From Vairimorpha apis BRL 01 (Eukaryota; Microsporidia; Nosematidae): a stretch of 11,566 nucleotides of DNA. A program made the position numbers and the translations under genes. Within the stretch, counting starts at the first letter, position 1, and each line of letters begins with the position of its first letter. The stretch spans positions 1 through 11,566 of the forward strand of contig KE647206.1 in NCBI GenBank assembly GCA_000447185.1. The letters run 5' to 3'. The notes beneath the pieces are model-generated. The model ran no database searches, was not told the origin of the DNA, and was given only the letters and a program-made list of their open reading frames with translations. This document shows positions 1 through 11,566 of this stretch, piece after piece.

Positions 1-24
1 ATAAATTAAAACAACCTAGTTCCT

Positions 25-1548
25 ATGTTGAATAATAAAAAAACCATGGAGGAAATTATAGTCGAGAGATTAAGTGAAAAACTCTCATTAATTATGTCGG
101 AAGATAAACAACCCTTGGCTAATATTAAAACTCTTAAGTATTATATAAATCTTAACAATCATTTTTCATATATAAAAAATAAACCATATATAACTTTACG
201 TGTTGATAAAAATATACCTGTAATCCACAAAAATGGATACAGCATCCCAATAAAATATGTAGAGAGAGGGAAAGCAGAGATACAGAGATTGCTCGATGAA
301 GATATTATTGAATACAGCAACTCCCTATATAATAGTCCCGCATTTTTTATCAAAAAGAAAAATAATGACTTACGATTAGTAATAAACTACCAAGAGATTA
401 ATAAATATATTCAAGACGATCCTTGAACACTCCTCAAAATAGATGAATGTCTTATTGACATAGGAAAAAACGAATACTTTAGCCAACTAGACTTAAAAAA
501 TGGTTTTAACCAAATAAGAATAAGTAAGGAATCTAGGAAATAAACAGCTTTTATGTTGCTTGGGCTCCAATATCAATACAAACGACTTCCATTTGGAATA
601 AAGCCGGGACCAAAAACGTTTCAAAGATACATTTCAGAAATATTAAAAGGAATAACCAATTGTTTCGTGTACATAGATGATATAGTAATTTATACTAAGA
701 CTATAGAAGAACACAAAAGAATTTTAGATATAATGCTAAAAAGATTGTTGGAACACGAAGTTAAGATAAATTTTGAAAAATCAAAAATTGGAATGAAGGA
801 AGTTGAAGTGTTAGGATATAGAGTCAATAATAAGGAAATCTTTCCAATATTTACGGACAAAACGTCTAAATTATTAAACAGAAACATTAAAACAAGGAAA
901 GAGGTACAAAGATTAGTGGGATTATTAAATTGGTATCGAAAATTTATACCAAATCTTTCAGAAAAAATATGCGAAATTACAAACCTGCTCAAAGGAAGAA
1001 AGGATGATAAAAAAATTACTGTAACAAGACAAATAAAAGATGAAATCAATAAATTATCTAAAATTATAGCAAATGAATCCAAACTAGATTTCCTAGATTT
1101 TTCGAAGAAGTTTACACTTGAATGTGATGCCTCTGACAAGGGTATAGGTAGTGTCTTACGACAAGAAGATAAAATTATAGGGTATTATTCTGAAAAATTA
1201 CAAGGACCGGAATTGAATTATAGTATAGTTGAAAAGGAATATTTATCCATATTTTTAGTTTTATTGCATTTTCAGCGAATCATCCAAGGAAACTATATTG
1301 AAATTTACACTGACAATAGAAATTGCAATCATGACAATAAAAAAATAACAAGCAGAATTCAGAGATGGAAATTACTCATGAATGAGTTTAGTTATAGCAT
1401 ATTTCATATACAAGGGAAAAATAATTCGGTAGCAGATGAACTATCGAGATGTTTTTTACTTAAAACAAAAAACAAGAAGGAAGAATTTAACCAATTAGTT
1501 AATGATGTATGCCAAAGAGAACGAAATGAAAAAATTAAAATAGATTAA
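25..1548 (+). pseudogene. pol: Ty3/gypsy pol: reverse transcriptase and RNase H, with two internal stops
   Basis: It would encode the polymerase that copies element RNA into DNA and the RNase H that removes the RNA strand. One frame runs throughout but is cut by TGA at 424-426 and TAA at 541-543, and ends at TAA 1546-1548. RT landmarks are the N-terminal block with NSPAFFIKKK (about 325-360), the catalytic Asp of QLDLKNGF at 490-492 (between the two stops), LPFG at 586-597 and the active-site box YIDD at 670-681. RNase H follows with its acidic residues: Asp of CDAS at 1126-1128, VEKEY around 1231, Asp of YTDN at 1312-1314 and Asp of ADELSR at 1435-1437. The ATG at 25 is only the first Met after an in-frame TAA at 7-9; the real polyprotein start lies upstream. 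The motifs make the family call secure. Only the stops, not missing motifs, disable it. Confidence 0.93.
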
Positions 1549-2509
1549 GCGAAACGAATCGTAATTGACCCAAAAGAGTATATTAATTTTCTGAAAAGGA
1601 TTCATCTAATAAGTGGGACACAGGGGGATAAATACGACATACTACAATCTAAAACGTTACTATCACATCAAAAATATTTATAAGTTAAAACAAGTAACGG
1701 AAACATGCAACGTTTGCCTAAGAATAAAATTAAGGTCGTATAAAAACAATAAAAACAACAAAATACAAGCCAAACATAAGTTGGAACGAATATCTACGGA
1801 CATATATGGGCCATTTAAATTAAAAGACTATGATTCAAATTCATTGAGAGAGACAGGATATGTATTATCAATTACTTATATATATACTAGATTCTCTAAA
1901 TTATATTTTCTAGAAAAAATTTCGTCAAATAACGTTTTAGAAAAGATTAAAACTTGGTTTAACAAATTCACTAAACCTAAATATATCATATCTGATAATG
2001 GAAAACAATTTCGAAATAAGAAAATGAAAGATTTCTTGAAAGCAAATAAGATTGAGCAAATTCTAGTACCTGAATATACTCCTTGTGCTAATGGAATTTC
2101 TGAGCGGATAAATAAGATTATCACTGAAATGCTTATTATTAATAAAGGAAAACGTATTAATGAAATACTGCAAGAAACAGAGTTTTGCATCAATAATAAC
2201 TACAATAGAATGATTAAAGCCTCTCCGGCTTCAAAGATTTATGGGTTGGACCTTTATAACATACTGAACCTACCAAATAAAGAAGAAGATAAAACAACGA
2301 TATGCAACAACACATGTAAAAGATTTAAGGTAGGTGACAGAGTGTTTAAAAGAATATTTAATAGTGAAAAGCTCGGTCCTAAATATGAATTAGTTACTAA
2401 AAGAATTACCAAAGTAGGTGATAGAGGATACTGGGTAAAATTAGACGATGAAGCTAGCTGGACCCACATAAGAAATATTAAGCTGTTAAGAGGGGGTAGT
2501 ATGTGGTAA
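1549..2509 (+). pseudogene. pol: Ty3/gypsy pol: integrase, frameshifted in its zinc-finger domain
   Basis: It would insert element DNA into the host chromosome. The N-terminal HHCC zinc finger is split between frames. Its first His (1603-1605) is in the RT frame, while its second His (1619-1621) and both Cys (1706-1708, 1715-1717) are in the next frame, so a one-base shift lies at about 1606-1612. The catalytic triad is complete: Asp 1799-1801, Asp 1994-1996 (in SDNGKQF) and Glu 2102-2104 (in GISERIN). The spacing D-x64-D-x35-E is right for retroviral-type integrases. The C-terminal part has VGDRVF and KLGPKYE, resembling the GPY/F module of Ty3/gypsy integrases, and ends at TAA 2507-2509. 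There is no true start here; this was part of a polyprotein. The stop at 1546 and the frameshift both separate it from RT. Confidence 0.93.
2488..2496 (+). promoter_or_regulatory. Candidate polypurine tract (plus-strand primer)
   Basis: The nine purines AAGAGGGGG lie a few codons before the integrase stop. LTR retrotransposons prime plus-strand DNA from such a tract immediately 5' of the 3' LTR, and the LTR usually begins with TG. A TG occurs at 2502-2503. No second LTR is in the window for comparison, so the assignment rests on position and base content only. Confidence 0.45.
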
Positions 2510-2721
2510 AATAACTGCCGCATTATTTAATTTATCATTTCATTTTATCGTTTCATTTATTTTTTAATCTATTCAGAATTTCTAGAAAAATAAAAGTATA
2601 AATTGACTGACCTTCATATAGGATGGACAGAAGAAGCAAGACAGAAAGGACTAACAACCCCAATAAATATTTTAAACCTAAACATTTATCCTGTAAAACT
2701 ATGTCTATATTAGAAAATTAC
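2510..2721. other. Non-coding stretch after pol; possible start of a 3' LTR
   Basis: No gene is supported here. If the purine tract at 2488-2496 is real, a 3' LTR should begin close to 2502 and occupy this stretch. A TATA-like AAAAGTATAAA lies near 2591-2601, but I see no matching LTR copy, no clear terminal CA and no target-site duplication. A short run TTTCATTTTATCGTTTCATTT repeats TTTCATTT twice around 2536-2558. Confidence 0.4.
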
Positions 2722-3129
2722 TTAAGTGCTGGACTCCTTCCAGGGAGTCGCACCACATGACCCTCCCTTCTTGGGTATGCATTTATAACATCTAACTGCT
2801 TCCCTTACAGCTTCGGCCATACTTGTCCACATTTTAGCTTTATCCTGCTCTTCCTTTTGTCTTATGGCCTCCTTTTAAACCTCTTCTTCTAATATCTCTA
2901 CCAGTTTCTGGTACTCATCTTTTCTCCCTATTCTTTCCACCATAAAGTCTCTTAAATTGTCACTTCCTTCATCAAATATGTGACGCTTTATATAAATAGG
3001 TTCTATATCCTCCAACTCCAACCTGTAAATAATTCTTCTCACTTCACTTAACATTTTTTTGGACTCTTGACCATAGTCATCACTTGCTGACTCTCGATTT
3101 GGTATCGCCCCCATGTCTTTATTTATCAT
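2722..3129 (-). pseudogene. Broken charged ORF with Cys-x2-Cys near its end, possibly a gag fragment
   Basis: From ATG at 3129 the frame gives 84 codons to TAA (2875-2877), then stays open for 50 more codons to TAA (2722-2724). The first part is rich in charged residues, with DNLRDFMVERIGRKDEYQK followed by a Glu-rich helix; after the stop come a Lys/Glu/Gln stretch and RCYKC. Cys are at residues 114, 117 and 125, giving C-x2-C-x7-C, which resembles a damaged retroviral-type zinc knuckle (normally C-x2-C-x4-H-x4-C) but lacks the His. A capsid-like helical region followed by a knuckle would fit the end of a Gag protein; that is inference. It faces the pol copy to its left, so it belongs either to another inverted fragment or to an antisense ORF of the same element. 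Composition is clearly less A/T than the sequence beyond 3135, so it is not random desert sequence. Confidence 0.4.
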
Positions 3130-3134
3130 AATGA

Positions 3135-3699
3135 GGGGTTAGAATTATTCAAATATATAACAAATAATAATATAAACGACAATAATTTATGTAAAATTAT
3201 TTAAAATCTTAAAACAAAAAAGTTTTTATAATAAATAATACAAAATAATTTAAAAAATTTGGTAAGTCTAAATATAAAAATTTATGATATCTAAATTATT
3301 TAATCATATAATACAATAATAATAAATGTATTTTTTAAAGTTAAAGCAATATTAGTTTAATGTACAATCATAATAATTTTTTTTACAGTTTTTTATGAAT
3401 CTAATCATTAAATATATTTTGTGATTTAATTATCACAACAGTACTTAATATATTTTATATTCTAATAATAATTTATTTTAAATAATAATTTCAAGCTACA
3501 ACACAACGAGATGAAATATGAGAATAATAAAACATATAATTAATTACAAAAATATTATAGAAAAAAAGTACAAATAAAATTCGTCAATAAAAACATTACA
3601 TATTCTGTATTTTAATCACAATAAATATTTTAAATTTATATTATTATTAGCAAAAAAGTTGCAAAAAATACAATTTAAAACCAAAACAAATAATAAATA
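3135..3699. other. A/T desert, no gene seen
   Basis: Composition changes abruptly at about 3135-3140 to nearly pure A/T with A exceeding T. Stops occur in all frames. Because the relic that follows is colinear with pol from about 3700, this stretch could be the still more eroded 5' side of that relic, but I could not align it with confidence to positions 1-300. Confidence 0.5.
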
Positions 3700-5660
3700 T
3701 CAATAGAAGCGCAACAAAAAATAATTGAATATAAATTAAGGAAGGTTATACATTTCATATTTAAACAAAATAAAAATGCTTGTATAAGACAATGAATGGT
3801 TTTGTGAAATCGTGAGCAATATATTTATGACTAAATTAAATTAGAAAAATTAAAGTTAACATAAGTAAAGACAGTTATACAAAAACGAGAACTAAATTTT
3901 GTTAGATATTAAACATAATCTTCTAGTAAAACAAATTGCTTTAAATAAAAAATCATACATATATTACCACGGCGAAAGAAGAACAAAGAACATTAAAATA
4001 TAATAGATGTTGTATTAAAAATTATTAAGACATAAGTTAAGATCAATTTTGACAAATTAAAAATTAGATTGAAGGAGATAAAAGTTCTGGAATATAAAGT
4101 AAAAAATAGAGGAACTTAATCAATTTTTACCGATTTAACTTTTAAACTATTAGGTAAAAATATAAAAACACAAAAAATATACAAAAACTAGTTGAATTAC
4201 TTAGCTGGAGAGAAATTTTATTTTAAATTTATATGATAAAATCATCATAATTACGGACCTGCTTAATTGTATCAGTTAATAAAAAGATATTATTAAATAA
4301 CAATAAAAATTTAGGAAAACTATTAACGAAGAATTAAAGCATATTGTTTTAGTTCTTATTAGAATCTTATATACGAATTTAATGTTTTTGATAGAGAAAT
4401 GTGTATTGTCTAAAAAATGAAATAAAATATTAATATATTATTCTAAAAATTATGACAAACATATATGAAACATAACATAGAAAAAATAAATTATTTAAAT
4501 ATTTTAATAATATAACTGCATTTAAAACGAATTATTTATAGAAAACTACATATGAATGTTAAATAATATTAAAAAATATTATATGACCATAAAAAATTGT
4601 AATATAGTATTCATCACACATAAAAAAAATAATCATATGATAAATGAATTTTTTTATCACTAACAATATAAAACAAAAATTTTAAAATTAAAAAAATATA
4701 TAATTTTTGTTAAAGAAAATAAAACATTTAATTAAAATTTTATAATAGAATTTATTTTTAATAAAAACAAGTACTTTAAAATTTATTTTAATTAATACAT
4801 TTATTATTGAACATAGAGTTATAAATATAGCATATTACAATAGTAAAAAATATATATATATAAATTAATTAAACGAGCAAATGAAATATGCAATATTTAT
4901 TTAAAATTAAAGTAAAATTATATAAAAACAACATTAGCAATAAAATAACAACTATTTAATTTTAAGATAAAATCTATAGATACTTATAAATTGAATTTGA
5001 AAAATATTATAATTCAAATTATCTGAGCGAGATATGTGATACATTATATTTATACAACTGAAATATTTAATTGGATTTTTAAAAATGTAATTTTTTATAA
5101 AGATTTTACCTTAAACGTTAAAAGAAATTAATAAGTGGAATTAAAATTTAAAAACTTATAATATATTTCTAAACTAAAAACATTTTAAAATATTAAATAA
5201 AAGAGTTTATTAGATTAAATTGATAAATAATTATTAGTTTCATATAAACTATGATAAAAAGCATTTTTACAAGAATAAATAAAATTATTTCTTTAATGTT
5301 AATTATTAACAGAGAAAATCTATGATTGAAAATATTTAATAAACATAAATTTTATAAATAACAATTAAAATATTTTGATATATGTTTCTAAGAAAAAATG
5401 TCTATGAAAAGATTTTAATAATGTAATTAATTTTTGTCATAAGATAATTTAAATATACACATATGTATATTAATTAATGTACAATATACAAAACAGGAGA
5501 CACAATATATAAACAACAAATGGAATGTAATAAATTAGATTTAAAATATGAAATAAAAACAAAATAAAAATACAGATTCAGCGATAAAACCTATGTATAC
5601 TTTGAATTATATTATCATATTAATGACTTTACATTCAATCAAAAAAATTAAATAAAAATT
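3700..5660 (+). mobile_element. Second, heavily decayed Ty3/gypsy pol copy hidden in the A/T desert
   Basis: By-eye alignment with the first pol copy gives a colinear chain. Pairs (copy 1 : here) are 302-380 : 3720-3789 (RT N-terminal block); 495-511 : 3790-3806 (around RT motif A); 755-834 : 4031-4110 (RT after YIDD; I count 59 of 80 bases identical without gaps); 973-990 : 4247-4264; 1170-1200 : 4421-4452 (RNase H); 1700-1732 : 4883-4915 (integrase zinc finger); 2102-2145 : 5272-5312 (integrase catalytic Glu region); 2331-2445 : 5494-5609 (integrase C-terminus). Conceptual translation around 4037-4105 still gives VKINFDKLKI and EYKVKN in the expected place. Stops and frameshifts occur throughout, so it is dead. 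About 110 bases are missing at 3789/3790, and one zinc-finger Cys codon has become Tyr. Order, strand and spacing together make chance similarity of A/T-rich DNA unlikely. Confidence 0.8.
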
Positions 5661-8600
5661 AAATAAATTATTTGTGCTATATATAATTAACTTTCTAGTT
5701 ATATATTTATAAATTATAAAAAACAAGTAATATTTAAATTTTTTTGTGTATGTATAATTTGATATAATATAACACTTTAGTTTAAAACTTATATTTATAT
5801 AATGTTAGTTAAAGTATATGTGAAAATATTTAAGCTAAAAAAATTGAAAGTCAAAGGACATTTTAAATACATTTTATTTTTTAATTTTTGAAATAAAAGA
5901 AATAAAGTTTGTAAATTATATGAGAAATATTTCACATTTATTTTTTTATTTTAAAATTATTTTTAAATGCGCTTTTCCAAAATTAAAGTAATCAAAATAT
6001 TTTCTAATAAAAAATTGAATTTATAAAATTTAATACTTATCAAAAAATAAATACCTAATATGATATGAAGCTTAAATATTTATAAACATTCTTATGTACA
6101 TTTTCTGTAATTTAAGATTTTAAGATATTAAAAATTTAACTTTATATTATTTTATATTAACTTATATATAGTAAATTTTGCATATGTAGAATTTCATATA
6201 TGTTATCTGATTTCATTTCATTTAAATTTTTAAAAACTCAAGGTATTCTTATCTTTAATTTTTATAATTTTATATATTATTTTATTTTTATATTTCATAA
6301 CATTAACAAAAACCCATTAAACTTTTTAAATGGATTTCAATTATAAATTACTTTTTTTTACAACAATTCTTATTATAAAAAATACATGTTAAGTAAAGTT
6401 AAATTTTTAAAATTGAAGCAAATTAAAATTTTATATACTTTTAGTTAAATTATTTTTTGAATATCATCTATCATTAATTTTCACTCAAAATCATGTTTAA
6501 GTAAAAATATATTGTTTTCAGTTGAACTTACAGAATAGATATAGTTATTAAAAAAATTAAATTTTTTAAAATTACATATTATTAGATTTTTTTAAAATAT
6601 TATATATGTACATTTTAATAATTTTAAAAGAATTTTTTAATATTAGTTATTAAATTATTTAATAACATTAATTGTGGATTTAGTAAATCAATATGGTTTT
6701 TTAAAATTCAAAAATTATTATAATTTATCACTATATCAAAAGATTATTAATATATTTATAGTTTTATACATAACTATTATAATATTATTTGTTAATATAA
6801 TTTATTCATTATGTGTAATATTATATTTATTAAAAATTTTTAGAAAATAAGTTTTAATGTATTGAAAAGAATAGTTAACAATAAATATGTAAATTTATAA
6901 AATAATGTCGTTTGTTTAAAGATTTTATAAATTGAATCAAATAAATAAATGTGTGAGATAAATTTTTTTGTTTATTTTACATTTGTATTTTTTTAAAACG
7001 TCTTTATTAGTTTAAATAGTAAGAATATATAGAACATATTGTTTTAAAGCTTTTTTAAATTTAATTTAATACAAAGTCTAACATTTTTTAGTAAAAGTAA
7101 CTATATGATTAAAAGTTTATTTAGATTGTTTTAAAGAAAAGTTACACATCGCCATTAGAAAAAACAATATTGTTTTTATAATAATCAACATTCTTCTTAA
7201 GATTGTTGAATTAATGATGATAAATGTAAACGTTATTGATTTATTTTTAACTTCAATTCAACATAATACGGTTTGAAATAAAAACTTTTTGATATTTTTC
7301 ATTCTTAAAATTTTTTTATTTAGAATATAATATTTGTTTTTACAAAAATTTATATGTATTTTATATATTCATTGCCATTAATTTCGATCTTTTAAAATCA
7401 CGATTTAATATTATATTATTTTATTTTTTGATTATGTTTTATAATATTATGTTAATTTGACTTTTTAAATATCTTGTAGGTTAGTTTTTCATAAATGTAA
7501 TATTTGAATATAATTTTTTTTTGTTTTGTTAAAAATAAAAGTATATTTAAAAATATTATTATTATTTTTAAATAATTTAAACAGATCAAGTTTTTTAATA
7601 CTATTGTATATTTATAAAATATAATTTTATTTATTATCATTTTAACTTACATAATTAATTTATTTTATGTTTATATTTTATTTTTTTAACATGCTTTAAT
7701 TTTTTTAAATTGATTGAAATGCTTTTAATCACACATAAAATTAAATAATTCAAAATTTTTTATTTATTTTAAATTTATATATAATTAATTTATAATTTCG
7801 AACAAATAGTTGGAATTGATTATATGATATACAACATAATAATAAAAGTGATTTTTCTGTATGTTTTAAATATATACATAATTTATTTTTAAAAATTTTA
7901 TTATTTTAGAATAACTCTATTAATTTAATGTTTAATTACAACTTTTTTCAAATACATCACAAGTTTCAAAATTCTACTTTTTTACGTCTATAATTAATTT
8001 TTGATATGTTTTAAAATTTTTAAGTATTTAAATAATTATAAGCATAGTAAATTCATAAAGTAAAACAAAATTAAAATTACTTCATCTAAAAAAATTTCTC
8101 TTATTTTCTTCAAGCCAAGTATATTCATAAAAAAGAAAAATGTATCACTCATATATTAAGTTTATAAATGTATTGTAGTTTTACAAGCATTTTAAGATTA
8201 ATATAAAATTTTATTATGTGATAATTATATTACATATATTACATCAAAACTTTTTATTCTAAATTATCAATTAAAATTAATTAAAGTTAAAATTGAAAAT
8301 TTTATAACAAATTATTTTCAGTTAAATGTTAATAATCGTCTTATATAAAAAACATAAATTTTGTTTTTTTTAAACTCATGATTTTTTTACTTTGACATTC
8401 GCTGTATCGCAATAACTGCACATTTTTTGAAATTAAATAAAAGAATTAATATTGATAATTTAAAAAATGAATTACATTGTAAATATCATTTTGCGTTAAA
8501 TGAATTTTATATAAAACTTATCTGTAAAAAAGTTTATCATTTAAAAATTTTTGTTTTTTGACATCAACAAATTTATAAATAAAATATTTTTAAAATATAA

Positions 8601-9255
8601 AACAATTTTATATAACTTATATACTACCATCATTAAAAATCATATGATGATTTTTTATAACCAAGTATTAGATAAATTATTTTTATTTGTAGTTCTATTA
8701 TATTTATTACTTTTTATTCAAAAACTATAAATAAAATATTTTTTATACATTATAAATAAAATGTATTTTTTATTGTTTATAAATATTTTCAATGAGAATG
8801 TATTATGTATTTATCAATTAAATTTTTGTAAAGTGTCTTTTTATATGTATAATTTTTATTTTCTTTTAAATTTTAATATATTAATATTTTAAGTCGATTT
8901 GAAATATTAAAAAGAGTTTTAAGAATTTAAATATTATAATCATTTCTATATTTCTTATTTTAGATGTTTAAATTAAATATTAAATTTAACATTCTTTAAA
9001 AATATTTCAACAATACATATATATTGAGATGATTATGTACATAAACTTACTAAAAATGTATAATAATACAGTTTAATTTTGTAAATATTCTATGAATGTT
9101 TTTTTTAAAATTTAGAATCTTTTTTCTTAATGTAAAAAAAAATGAAAATTAATTAGGATATATTGTTCTTGCATTAATTTATATATTGTCACAATTAGAT
9201 AAAGAACTATATTTATAAATATCAAATTATTTTCCTTAATAATTTATTCATATTC
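5661..9255. other. A/T desert without recognisable genes
   Basis: No credible reading frame or RNA gene is visible. Long runs of A and T dominate. Above about 5.8 kb T outnumbers A in most lines (for example 36 T to 18 A at 8821-8880), whereas in the relic to the left A outnumbers T (32 to 20 at 4861-4920). That would fit decayed sequence of the opposite orientation, but none of my reverse-complement comparisons with pol was convincing. The longest open frame (minus strand, 7452-7640) is low-complexity Ile/Leu/Lys and is not a gene. Confidence 0.6.
8726..8773. repeat. Short imperfect tandem duplication
   Basis: TATAAATAAAAT followed by ATTTTTTAT occurs at 8726-8750 and again from 8751 with a two-base insertion. 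A similar core lies at 8574-8592. Low sequence complexity makes replication slippage the simplest explanation. Confidence 0.4.
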
Positions 9256-9500
9256 TGTAGTGTGTTCGACACTTCGCTCTTACATAAAAGACTCTTTGTG
9301 TTTATTTTAACACTCTGGTTTAAACAAATGCTAGTGTTTTGCTGTTTCTATTAAAATTATTCTTGTATTTTTGTGAAATGTTGTTACTTTTTACTCTCAT
9401 CTCATAACGTATGTTATAATTTAAGTTTTATATCCAATATTGCAAAGCAGCAGATCATATTTATGCTCTTTTCGGTTTTCACGGCTCGCATGTTATTAAA
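9256..9500. other. Higher-complexity island, possible old LTR
   Basis: This stretch stands out from the A/T background, with TGTAGTGTGTTCGACACTTC at its left edge and TTTTCGGTTTTCACGGCTCG near its right side. It opens with TG, has a TATA-like ACATAAAAG at 9282-9290 and contains no protein-coding frame of note. LTRs have this character: TG at the start, promoter-like content and no ORF. I could not find its right boundary, a paired copy or a target-site duplication. It could equally be a remnant of a host regulatory region or of another element. Confidence 0.3.
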
Positions 9501-10351
9501 ACTGGTAATTTCAAAAAATAATTAAAATAATTATATTTATTTTATAGATTATAAATACAATAGATTTATTAGAGATGCATTCCTGTAAAAAATGATTTCA
9601 AATTTTTAGGTTTATCTAAACCATAGTTAAGGCAAAATAAATAATCGGTATATCTTAAAACTTTATTATGCCTACTTATTTAGTCGTGTGACAACATTCT
9701 ATCACTCTATCTAGACACTGGTCTAAGATTTTGTATTTGTTCATACAATGAAGAAATTGAAATTTTTACAATTTTACCATAATTTATTTTTATATTTTAA
9801 TGCCTTAAAATCTTGTATAATAATATTTAATATTTTTTTACAGTTATATTCTAATTCTAATAGATTATTGAATTTTAATCATAATAATCAAATATAGTTA
9901 ATTTTTTTATAAATTTAGAAAATCAATTGATTTAATTGATTCGAAGTAAAATTTTAAATTATATTTAACTTGATTGTAAATTAATCTTTCTAAAAACGCA
10001 GTTAAAAAGCAAAATATTGATAGTTTGTTCTTTTTAATTTGTATATAATATCATTTCAAAATTTTAGAATTTTAATTGTTTTAATTTAAAAAACGATCTA
10101 TTAAGCCATAAGTTATTTATGTTTATATTAATATTTAATAAAATTTACTGTAAATTATCATGATCTGCTATAGGTTGTTTTTTAATTTATATGCACAATA
10201 AGCATTAGACGATTAAAGATCAGTTGAAACCAAATTTACAGTTAATCATTTTCTTTATACTTGTTGGTTTTAATTCATTAAAATTTTATTTTGTATATTA
10301 TAATTTAAATAAATATATAAAGAAGACGTATTTTATTTTTCACCATCATGT
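9501..10351. other. A/T desert flanking the piggyBac insertion
   Basis: No gene is seen. A slightly more complex patch at 9684-9735 (around GTCGTGTGACAACATTC and TAGACACTGGTCTAAG) has no recognisable content. A perfect palindrome AATCAATTGATT at 9921-9932 is unremarkable in this composition. The stretch ends at the TTAA where the piggyBac element begins. Confidence 0.5.
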
Positions 10352-10355
10352 TTAA
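10352..10355. repeat. TTAA target site at the piggyBac end
   Basis: piggyBac elements insert at TTAA and duplicate it. TTAA here directly precedes the abrupt switch from A/T desert to GC-rich terminal sequence. TTAA alone is common in this window; its position at the composition junction, downstream of a piggyBac transposase gene, is what makes the assignment. Confidence 0.8.
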
Positions 10356-10388
10356 CACGTTCGCGCCGGCGCGGGTCACCGGTGACCC
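10356..10388 (-). repeat. Terminal sequence (3' end) of the piggyBac element, doubly palindromic
   Basis: The element end starts CACGTTCG and contains two perfect palindromes sharing one base: CGCGCCGGCGCG (10362-10373) and GGGTCACCGGTGACCC (10373-10388). It is by far the most GC-rich stretch in the window and contains seven CpG. It sits about 170 bases beyond the transposase stop, as expected for the transposase-gene 3' side. The matching terminal repeat at the other end lies outside the window, so the extent of the inverted repeat is not known. Confidence 0.75.
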
Positions 10389-10559
10389 ACACTAAACTGT
10401 CATTAAAAACATTTATTTTTAATAATAATTTTAATCAAAAATGTATCAGGACTATAAGTTTTGTTCAATAACAAACATAATAATACAGTATTATACAAAA
10501 ATTCAAATACGGTTAAAATAACATAAAATCTAATATTGTTTTATTTATAACTGCATTAT

Positions 10560-11566
10560 TTATTGTTTTTTGTGTAATTTGTTAAAACATTCCAAGCAAA
10601 GTGCTGGCTGTCCCTCACAAAGTCCACAATACGTCTTAACCCTTTTAGTATTGTTAGTTGCATAAGCTCTGCCCTTTTTATTAGACATATTTTTATAGCA
10701 TTCCTTGCAGCGTTTACGGGTGTCTCTTGCCGATCCTTTATATGATTGAAGAACGTGTTTATGTGACGGTATATGACGGCATATTTGTTCATTGGACAAA
10801 AGATTATCGATAATATTTTCCCTAAATCTTAACATAGTCATATTTTTAGTGCCCCATCTTTTATGAATATACCACGCATTCACGAGGGAAGTTCCGCATA
10901 TTAATTGTATTATTATTTTTCGGTACCACTTAATGGTTTTTCGTAAACAACTGTAGTACGCCGATAGTTGATCTGATAAATCGACACCTTTTTTTGCAAT
11001 ATTGTAGTCAAACACAGCATCGGGCTTTACTCGGTCATTTATTCCTTGCACAAATTTACACTGGTGATTCTTTGAGGTAGTTAACATGCAAACTAGTCTT
11101 TTGTCCGTCCATTTCAAAAATTTTACACCACTACGATTTTCAAAGCTTATCATTTCACCACGTTTTTGTTTTGTTTTTGCCTGCGGTGGTAGACTTTTTC
11201 TGTTTATTTTTACAGTACCACAAAAAAATGTATTTTTCTCTAAAAGCTCTTCACCCAAAGGGACACTTGTATAATAATTATCAATAAATAGTGTGCGGCC
11301 CTCAAATAATAAGCCACTTAATAATCTCATTACTACGTCATGGGGATGTGATTTTTCAATGATCTGTCCATTTTTCCCAGCATAAATTTCGAAATTATAA
11401 GTGTAGCCTTCAGGTAAACACAATTTGTATGCTTTTACGCCATACTTATGTCGCTTGCCTGGAATGTATTGGCGAAAGCCTAGACGTCCTCTCTAGGGGA
11501 CCATACTTTCATCGATAACAATATTTTTGCATGGTTTTATAGAACTCTTGAAATTATCTACAATTG
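10560..11566 (-). pseudogene. piggyBac transposase, C-terminal part, with an in-frame TAG
   Basis: This is a DDE/D transposase that would excise and insert the element at TTAA. The open frame enters from beyond the window edge (first full codon 11564-11562) and ends at TAA 10562-10560, giving 334 codons, a little over half of a typical transposase of about 590 residues. The catalytic aspartates match the piggyBac pattern: Asp in VIDESMVP (11511-11513), Asp in FIDNYYTS (11280-11282), and the pair in GVDLSDQ (10980-10982, 10971-10973). The C-terminus holds a cysteine-rich zinc-binding domain with Cys pairs CKEC, CGLC and CLEC plus a His (10572-10709). A TAG at 11493-11495 directly follows the first catalytic motif, where the family normally has a sense codon before RGRL. 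The 287-codon stretch after it has no ATG at its head and is not a natural gene start. The 5' half and start are outside the window. Confidence 0.92.

Follow-up and report, generated by a model that had tools for sequence, protein, structure and literature searches.

A decayed Ty3/gypsy pol relic near mutational equilibrium in an A/T desert of the microsporidian Vairimorpha apis

Introduction

Dead transposons have reportedly served, in the type of analysis associated with Petrov and Hartl, as a source for the neutral substitution pattern of a genome. In some fungi, A/T-rich transposon relics are made by repeat-induced point mutation (RIP). The A/T isochores that RIP has made in ascomycetes resemble the locus described here in being A/T-rich gene deserts of transposon relics, as far as the excerpted account goes (PMC12543289). 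Ty3/gypsy, piggyBac, and other transposons are known in microsporidia from the available parts of two reports (PMC4202319, PMC2685015); the microsporidian Ty3/gypsy elements as excerpted from Parisot et al. 2014 (PMC4202319) have the order reverse transcriptase (RT), RNase H, integrase, which is common to them and to our locus. In the portion available of de Albuquerque et al. 2020 (PMC7313128), transposons are, as here, dated by divergence within a genome, Nosema included.

We analyzed a window of 11,566 bases, being bases 1–11566 of a contig of 34,130 bases (C126), with genome searches covering 223 contigs and 5.96 Mb. The window starts within a Ty3/gypsy pol (copy 1, family A), and a preliminary description had read an A/T-rich stretch downstream of it, 3700–5660, as a second, nearly erased copy of the same retrotransposon (copy 2). 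We consider it very likely that 3898–5594 is a Ty3/gypsy relic decayed to mutational equilibrium, beside which a second retrotransposon (family B) and then copy 1 were nested (Table 1).

Table 1. Features of the window, with coordinates, strand, and basis of assignment
Feature	Position	Strand	Basis
Copy 1, Ty3/gypsy pol (RT, RNase H, integrase), family A	1–2509	+	ORFs, Pfam; truncated by contig start
Copy 1 3' LTR, 256 bp, TGTGGT...ACCACA	2502–2757	+	LTR matches in several other contigs
Copy 1 target duplication TGACC	2758–2762		TGACC also precedes 5' LTR on C127
Family B gag-side fragment, host of the copy 1 insertion	2763–3113	-	90% match to C219
Family B 49-bp LTR (TGTT...GACA), then TGG... 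on the minus strand	3114–3162	-	Genome-wide pattern count
Family B target duplication TTATT (plus strand AATAA)	3163–3167		TTATT also beside other LTR on C127
A/T desert where first half of copy 2 RT would fall	3163–3897	.	GC 0.158; no homology detected
Copy 2, relic of a Ty3/gypsy pol, latter half of RT through the integrase C-terminus	3898–5594	+	GC 0.158
RT, YxDD position to thumb	3931–4266	+	tblastn, DNA identity, profile
RNase H remnant, colinear, weak	4465–4536	+	tblastn E 0.12; DNA tiles
Integrase zinc finger and core remnant	4806–5313	+	DNA tiles, profiles, weak tblastn
Integrase C-terminal remnant, weak	5472–5594	+	tblastn, profile, tile
A/T desert	5801–9200	.	GC 0.138
Decayed reverse-transcriptase-like repeat piece	9230–9820	-	15 other contigs at 66–75% identity
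piggyBac transposase, partial frame	10563–11492	-	DDE_Tnp_1_7 E 4e-40

Results

Copy 2 matches copy 1 in order and on the same strand

Smith–Waterman alignment (2/-3, gaps -6/-2) of 1–2510 with 3135–5800 gave a score of 113, while 60 dinucleotide shuffles had a mean of 35.7 (SD 3.3) and a maximum of 46. The reverse-strand control scored 30, and the desert stretches 5801–8466 and 6700–9366 scored 34 each. The best DNA chain between the two copies reached 389 bits, the next 145. When copy 1 was cut into 11 tiles of 250 bases, six of them (751 to 2250) matched in order on the plus strand at 4034–5379, bearing out the colinear, same-strand match that had been claimed from the letters; five of the six scored above 100 of 100 shuffles and one was equalled by 1 of 100. 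Tile 2251–2500 lay on the same diagonal, but its score was reached by 18 of 100 shuffles, and the tiles covering 1–750 and 2501–2750 had no match in the copy 2 region. Against the desert 5801–8566 none of the 11 tiles was prominent, each score being reached by at least 16 of 100 shuffles.

Profiles made from ten other copies, with copy 2 excluded, matched 4036–4266 (E 6e-25), 4809–5064 (2e-6), 5272–5345 (4e-4), and 5454–5552 (0.025), with nothing significant over RNase H, where neither of the two profile pieces (1060–1360 and 1360–1620) found a match, or before 4031. The extent of copy 2 is thus firm at 4034–5379, with a weaker signal over 3898–5594. Of the stretch originally proposed, 3700–3897 and 5595–5660 were left without support; a blastn alignment of 133–2620 with 3444–5801 exceeds what the tile and profile tests support and was not taken as the extent. 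Neither tiles nor profiles detected the first half of RT in 3163–3897. The family A LTR compared with 5600–6100 gave a score equalled by 191 of 300 shuffles, and no copy 2 LTR was found; a gag comparison at 2758–3450 reached a score shared by 22 of 300 shuffles, no convincing signal. The preliminary description had warned that simple searches could miss such a stretch, and indeed a genome-wide DNA search with copy 1 (755–1500) returned 10 places without copy 2, which was found by protein search of the genome.

Protein-level support differs between domains

Within RT, tblastn matched 3931–4233 at 45% over 102 residues (E 1.5e-16 unadjusted for composition, 5e-13 with the adjustment), the DNA of 4034–4266 was 70% identical (E 2e-22), and a read-through search matched C126:3898–4533 (E 1.7e-13). 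The RT assignment therefore holds from about the catalytic YxDD position onward and not for the first half of the domain. The tblastn match of the RNase H remnant dropped out under composition adjustment, while the DNA tiles over this part were reached by 0 of 100 (1001–1250) and 1 of 100 shuffles (1251–1500). For integrase, no shuffle in 100 reached the score of any tile from 1501 to 2250. The integrase protein match at 4843–5313 had E 1.7e-7 under composition-unadjusted statistics only; with adjustment, just 5260–5313 (E 0.038) and 4806–4862 (0.12) were left, no integrase protein match in copy 2 passed E 1e-3 with SEG, and copy 2 was not among the 29 matches of a whole-genome search with the integrase piece. 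The C-terminal remnant had a tblastn E of 1.8e-4 unadjusted and none when adjusted, beside the profile E of 0.025 and the tile reached by 18 of 100 shuffles. The integrase part is established by DNA comparison, with protein comparison arguing for it weakly. The claimed succession from RT to the integrase C-terminus stood as a colinear DNA match, with RNase H and the C-terminus individually weak; the order RT, RNase H, integrase on one strand is seen in the DNA tiles, and in the profiles for RT and integrase, and copy 2 is nearer to a Ty3/gypsy pol of its own genome than expected by chance.

Two A-rich, strand-skewed sequences could resemble each other fortuitously, and some observations lean that way: under permissive scoring, unrelated desert parts also align over 2 kb at 53–54%, AT skew is alike in copies 1 and 2, and the integrase protein matches fade with composition adjustment. 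The chain, shuffle, and desert controls, the ordered tiles with their negative desert counterpart, and the adjusted RT protein match speak against it and refute chance both for RT and for the integrase part at DNA level; its probability is practically nil.

The pol frame is broken and its divergence flattened

As the preliminary description had stated, no usable ORF is present: no open frame of at least 60 codons occurs between 3139 and 5606. Opposite the catalytic YIDD of copy 1, copy 2 reads K-stop-K-I, so that both an intact YxDD and an open pol frame are lacking, and the match at C126:3898–4533 holds 19 stops (2 TGA, 3 TAG, and 14 TAA). Codon, drift, and tree counts were redone on copy 1 positions 758–2214 and 620–2431, as the first counts had included unsupported columns; codon flattening and drift persisted on the supported columns, and the sister position to the copy 1 family did not. 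Over 758–2214, the two copies are separated by 32 gap runs, 25 of them not multiples of three, and are identical at 811 of 1315 sites (62%; 57% in the whole alignment). Mismatches of copy 2 to copy 1 in this interval fall on the three codon positions at 0.367/0.333/0.439, in comparison with 0.257/0.153/0.503 for the pol on C121 (Fisher p 7e-7) and 0.300/0.200/0.496 for that on C217 (p 6e-4). The stops, frameshifts, and flattened codon-position divergence show a long neutral decay of copy 2. Third positions still differ most, and part of the divergence therefore arose under coding selection; such an excess is what a once-coding sequence would keep after decaying neutrally.

Composition agrees with the mutation bias of young copies

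The preliminary description had inferred drift toward an A/T equilibrium from an ungapped block (755–834 against 4031–4110) with 59 identities in 80 bases and 21 differences, 11 of them from G/C to A/T and 7 the reverse. Our recount gave exactly these figures, which by themselves hardly demonstrate drift; the drift is borne out by larger counts. In columns of 758–2214 where six relatives agree, copy 2 has A/T at 82 of 129 G/C sites and G/C at 61 of 646 A/T sites. Among young LTRs, singletons changed 23 of 617 G/C sites to A/T and 12 of 1652 sites in the reverse direction, a 5.1-fold per-site excess, as counted from 10 of about 21 family A LTR places, with partial, two-piece (C204), and strongly diverged places excluded and the C133 LTR aligned but not counted. 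In young pol, the corresponding numbers were 22 of 2708 and 15 of 6976, a 3.8-fold per-site excess, in columns with at least three of the four young rows agreeing and with C126 and C127, probably one insertion, taken as two copies. The ancestral base was taken as the commonest base, a crude rule, and the pol singletons may include changes older than the insertion as well as errors of sequencing. The pooled equilibrium GC predicted from the young copies is 0.188 (95% interval 0.12–0.27); copy 2 has 0.158, the desert at 5801–9200 has 0.138, and copy 1 has 0.285. As the young-copy bias predicts a GC of about 0.19, the composition of copy 2 is about at mutational equilibrium.

A RIP-like defence would offer another source of A/T richness, one known to leave such relics in fungi, and in the young copies C-to-T and G-to-A rank with the most frequent singletons. 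Within 3898–5594, however, TpA/ApT is 0.97 and (CpA+TpG)/(ApC+GpT) is 1.11, and CpA, at 1.15 of its expectation, is not depleted, the wider stretch and the desert being similar; the dinucleotide indices are thus against RIP for copy 2, which has neither the CpA depletion nor the TpA excess. Young copies at 97–99% identity persist, no RIP/MIP-related proteins were reported in 47 microsporidian proteomes in the part consulted of de Albuquerque et al. 2020 (PMC7313128), and RIP signatures are, in an excerpted survey whose inclusion of microsporidia is not established, almost confined to ascomycetes (PMC12543289). Taken together, a RIP-like origin is most improbable. We infer that copy 2 decayed through lost selection and not through host defence.

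Copy 1 lies in family B, which lies in the desert

The frame of copy 1 is interrupted by stops at 424, 541, and 1546 and by a frame change before 1613. Pfam recognizes RVT_1 (5e-21), RT_RNaseH (4e-25), rve (6e-8), and, under its cut-off, Integrase_H2C2 (6e-5). Three further matches in the genome are 97–99% identical, among them the pol on C127, which is probably the other end of the same insertion. The closest relatives of the pol piece 544–1545 under eukaryote names come from Dictyocoela muelleri and Nosema granulosis; one with a better score is labelled as a Lactobacillaceae metagenome bin, which we take as mislabelling. The 5' LTR on C127 (17734–17989) and the LTR in the window agree at 247 of 256 bases (9 differences), and exact 5-bp duplications flank five of six further family A LTRs that we took as solo. 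Copy 1 thus has the TG...CA LTRs, the 5-bp target duplication, and the RT, RNase H, integrase order of a Ty3/gypsy element. The family A LTR is followed by (A)ATGAATTC... (C127:17990; C4), with no TGG-type primer site, unlike family B, and family A may be primed in another way than family B.

The conserved 50-mer at 3113–3162 was considered as the 5' end of a gene family and rejected, as most copies have no frame behind them and the flanks indicate an LTR. At up to three mismatches, the 49-bp pattern occurs at 14 places in the genome, the window included, and its reversed control at none. The LTR at C127:15082–15130 and that in the window agree at 48 of 49 bases, with TTATT on both outer sides, and enclose an interior of about 2.95 kb (2603 bases on C127 and 351 in the window). 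Seven further copies, taken as solo, have 5-bp duplications that are exact in four cases and match at four of five bases in three. In Pfam, zf-CCHC, RVT_1, RNase H, and H2C2 pass the cut-off and rve_3 (E 0.0012) stays below it; no aspartic protease profile appeared between the zinc knuckle and RT at E up to 1. With two LTRs, a target duplication, and RT, RNase H, and integrase, family B is built like an ordinary LTR retrotransposon. Its 49 bp are very short for an LTR: no such length appeared in the titles and abstract openings returned by a thin literature search, and one of these partial texts lists a plant element of 292 bp.

The two contigs appear to complement each other. C127 ends within a 99% identical pol, TGACC precedes the C127 LTR and follows the window LTR, and when the two flanks (300+300) are joined, they align through the junction with the family B copy on C219 over 648 columns at 87% with four gap openings. 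C127 and C126 very probably carry opposite ends of a single nested insertion that the assembly split inside the repeated pol, to judge from these sequence joins; the weak point of the joining is the pol overlap, which is 99.2% and not 100% identical and calls for haplotypes or assembly mixing. Beyond family B on C127 there is again A/T desert, with a GC of 0.121. Copy 1 is therefore no tandem neighbor of copy 2: it lies in family B, itself inserted in the desert to the left of copy 2, and it is this nesting that makes the two copies look adjacent. The flanks on the two contigs show that family B came after the surrounding desert and copy 1 after family B. Copy 2 appears older than family B. 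That family B landed inside copy 2 is possible; none of 10 tiles found copy 2 sequence on the C127 side, the best score being reached by 5 of 100 shuffles. Flanking LTRs and a target duplication of copy 2 were not found on either side of family B, which is consistent with loss by decay and with copy 2 being a relic and not an intact member.

Copy 2 is an old relative of copy 1

By score, copy 2 is closest to the copy 1 family (106–122), followed by C217 (57), C121 (47), and C210 (43). The pol tree had 10 rows besides copy 2, with the ends of C43, C183, C210, and C219 placed by eye. With all columns, copy 2 is sister to the four family A rows (support 84/96) with an end branch of 1.01. With the supported columns, it joins C210 (63/50) within a six-row group of family A, C210, and copy 2 (91/97), on an end branch of 0.76 changes per site; this weakly supported pairing is a long-branch join. 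A FastTree run also placed copy 2 with C210 (0.819), and the tree program warns on base composition and long branches. A tree constrained to hold copy 2 with the copy 1 family could stand (p 0.358 and 0.372); placement with C121 and C217 gave p 0.0175 and 0.127. On these alignments, copy 2 is best read as an old relative of copy 1, a cousin and not a sibling, whose closest row varies with the columns used.

The same data bear on whether copy 2 might be a true duplicate from the burst of copy 1's own family that decayed faster. The score ranking and the sister position, favored in one tree and not rejected in the others, are compatible with this. Yet members of the copy 1 family differ by 1–3%, whereas copy 2 differs from all four by about 42% in the whole alignment and 38% over 758–2214, and their end branches are at most 0.007 in comparison with 0.76–1.01. 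We regard a same-burst duplicate as very unlikely, and the description of 3700–5660 as a second copy of the neighboring retrotransposon, in the sense of a duplicate or tandem pair, falls: copy 2 is an older relative, 57–62% identical.

Other transposon remains of the window and contig

A DNA search of the desert 5800–7500 in the genome gave only short matches of 67–89%, some to both strands, which we read as low complexity and did not count as homology. The repeat piece at 9230–9820 has a sister copy that keeps a 222-codon frame with relatives in Vairimorpha apis (as much as 92% identical across half of its length), Nosema granulosis, Astathelohania, and Hamiltosporidium, several of them named reverse transcriptase; a Pfam search of this repeat family gave nothing significant. 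By these relatives, the piece probably stems from the C-terminal region of a non-LTR element. The interval from 3163 to 10350, some 7.2 kb, thus holds at least two relics, which together account for about 2.3 kb.

Along 83% of its length, the piggyBac frame has 91% identity with a cat flea protein; identity is 80% both to an ant protein (over 90%) and to a Vairimorpha apis protein (over 54%). An exchange between the parasite and insects is the likely reading of these matches; for other microsporidian piggyBacs, such exchange is published, as the available part of PMC4202319 has it. A CG-rich palindrome-like stretch follows TTAA at about 10352 and may be a piggyBac terminal repeat, as a candidate. 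Farther along the contig, there are piggyBac fragments at C126:18981–19444 and a weak RT fragment at 17498–17650 (E 7e-4). No RNA gene reached the Rfam gathering score, ARAGORN (bacterial code) found no tRNA, and in NCBIfam nothing passed the cut-off, the additions being distant RT and transposase matches.

Discussion

Homology, order, strand, broken frame, and mutation bias of copy 2 are direct observations on the window. The history behind them would have begun with a Ty3/gypsy retrotransposon that inserted long ago and lost its function. Unselected point changes and small indels would then have built up in copy 2 until the mutational equilibrium, at about 14–20% GC, was reached. The compact family B with its 49-bp LTRs later entered this desert at 3162/3163 and was in turn the target of copy 1 (family A). 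The claim that at least part of the desert is dead transposon stands for copy 2. The remaining desert would be of similar origin, and we hypothesize that the whole of it is a transposon graveyard.

Fungal regional centromeres are long, gene-poor, A/T-rich blocks with nested retroelements, and the locus resembles them. A role of the region, as centromere or heterochromatin for example, could select for A/T richness, so that the composition would reflect selection and not mutation. In the next 20 kb of the contig (C126:11567–31566, taken as two stretches of 10 kb, part of which reads N), no ATG-started frame reaches 130 codons, and a low-GC centromere case is mentioned for A. locustae in the excerpted text of PMC13174016. 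In the same excerpt, however, centromere-like Ty3-bearing regions of Microsporidia sp. MB are GC-rich, and the mutation bias of the young copies alone predicts the composition observed. We hold selection for A/T richness to be unlikely and retain decay to mutational equilibrium.

A wider reading, to which we give slightly less than even odds, is that transposon DNA at equilibrium, missed by repeat masking, makes up much of the A/T desert in this genome and, by extension, in related A/T-rich microsporidia. If so, the mutation matrix would be supplied by recent insertions and its outcome by relics like copy 2, and mutation alone would account for the low GC of such genomes. For one genome, dead transposons give a direct answer: an old relic sits about where the bias of the young copies predicts. 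Methods based on nucleotide identity can undercount transposon content. Copy 2 is ordinary in kind and useful as a record of mutation bias, as copies of several ages are found within one genome, and the locus preserves three layers, first the desert with copy 2, next family B, and last family A, from a lineage noted for its reduced genomes.

Copy 2 adds one more case to a kind already known. As in the Petrov and Hartl type of analysis, mutation bias is read from dead copies; here the copies are few and the genome is very A/T-rich. Among the open-licence papers listed by our literature searches, there was no microsporidian case of that analysis and no title treating decayed microsporidian transposons as a mutation record. 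The ascomycete isochores made by RIP differ from copy 2 in their CpA-to-TpA signature, which is absent here. The families of Parisot et al., as excerpted (PMC4202319), consist of sequences more than 90% identical, whereas copy 2 is a single relic without ends at 57–62%. The elements in the available portion of PMC7313128 have more than 80% identity to reference sequences, and a relic like copy 2 would fall below that level.
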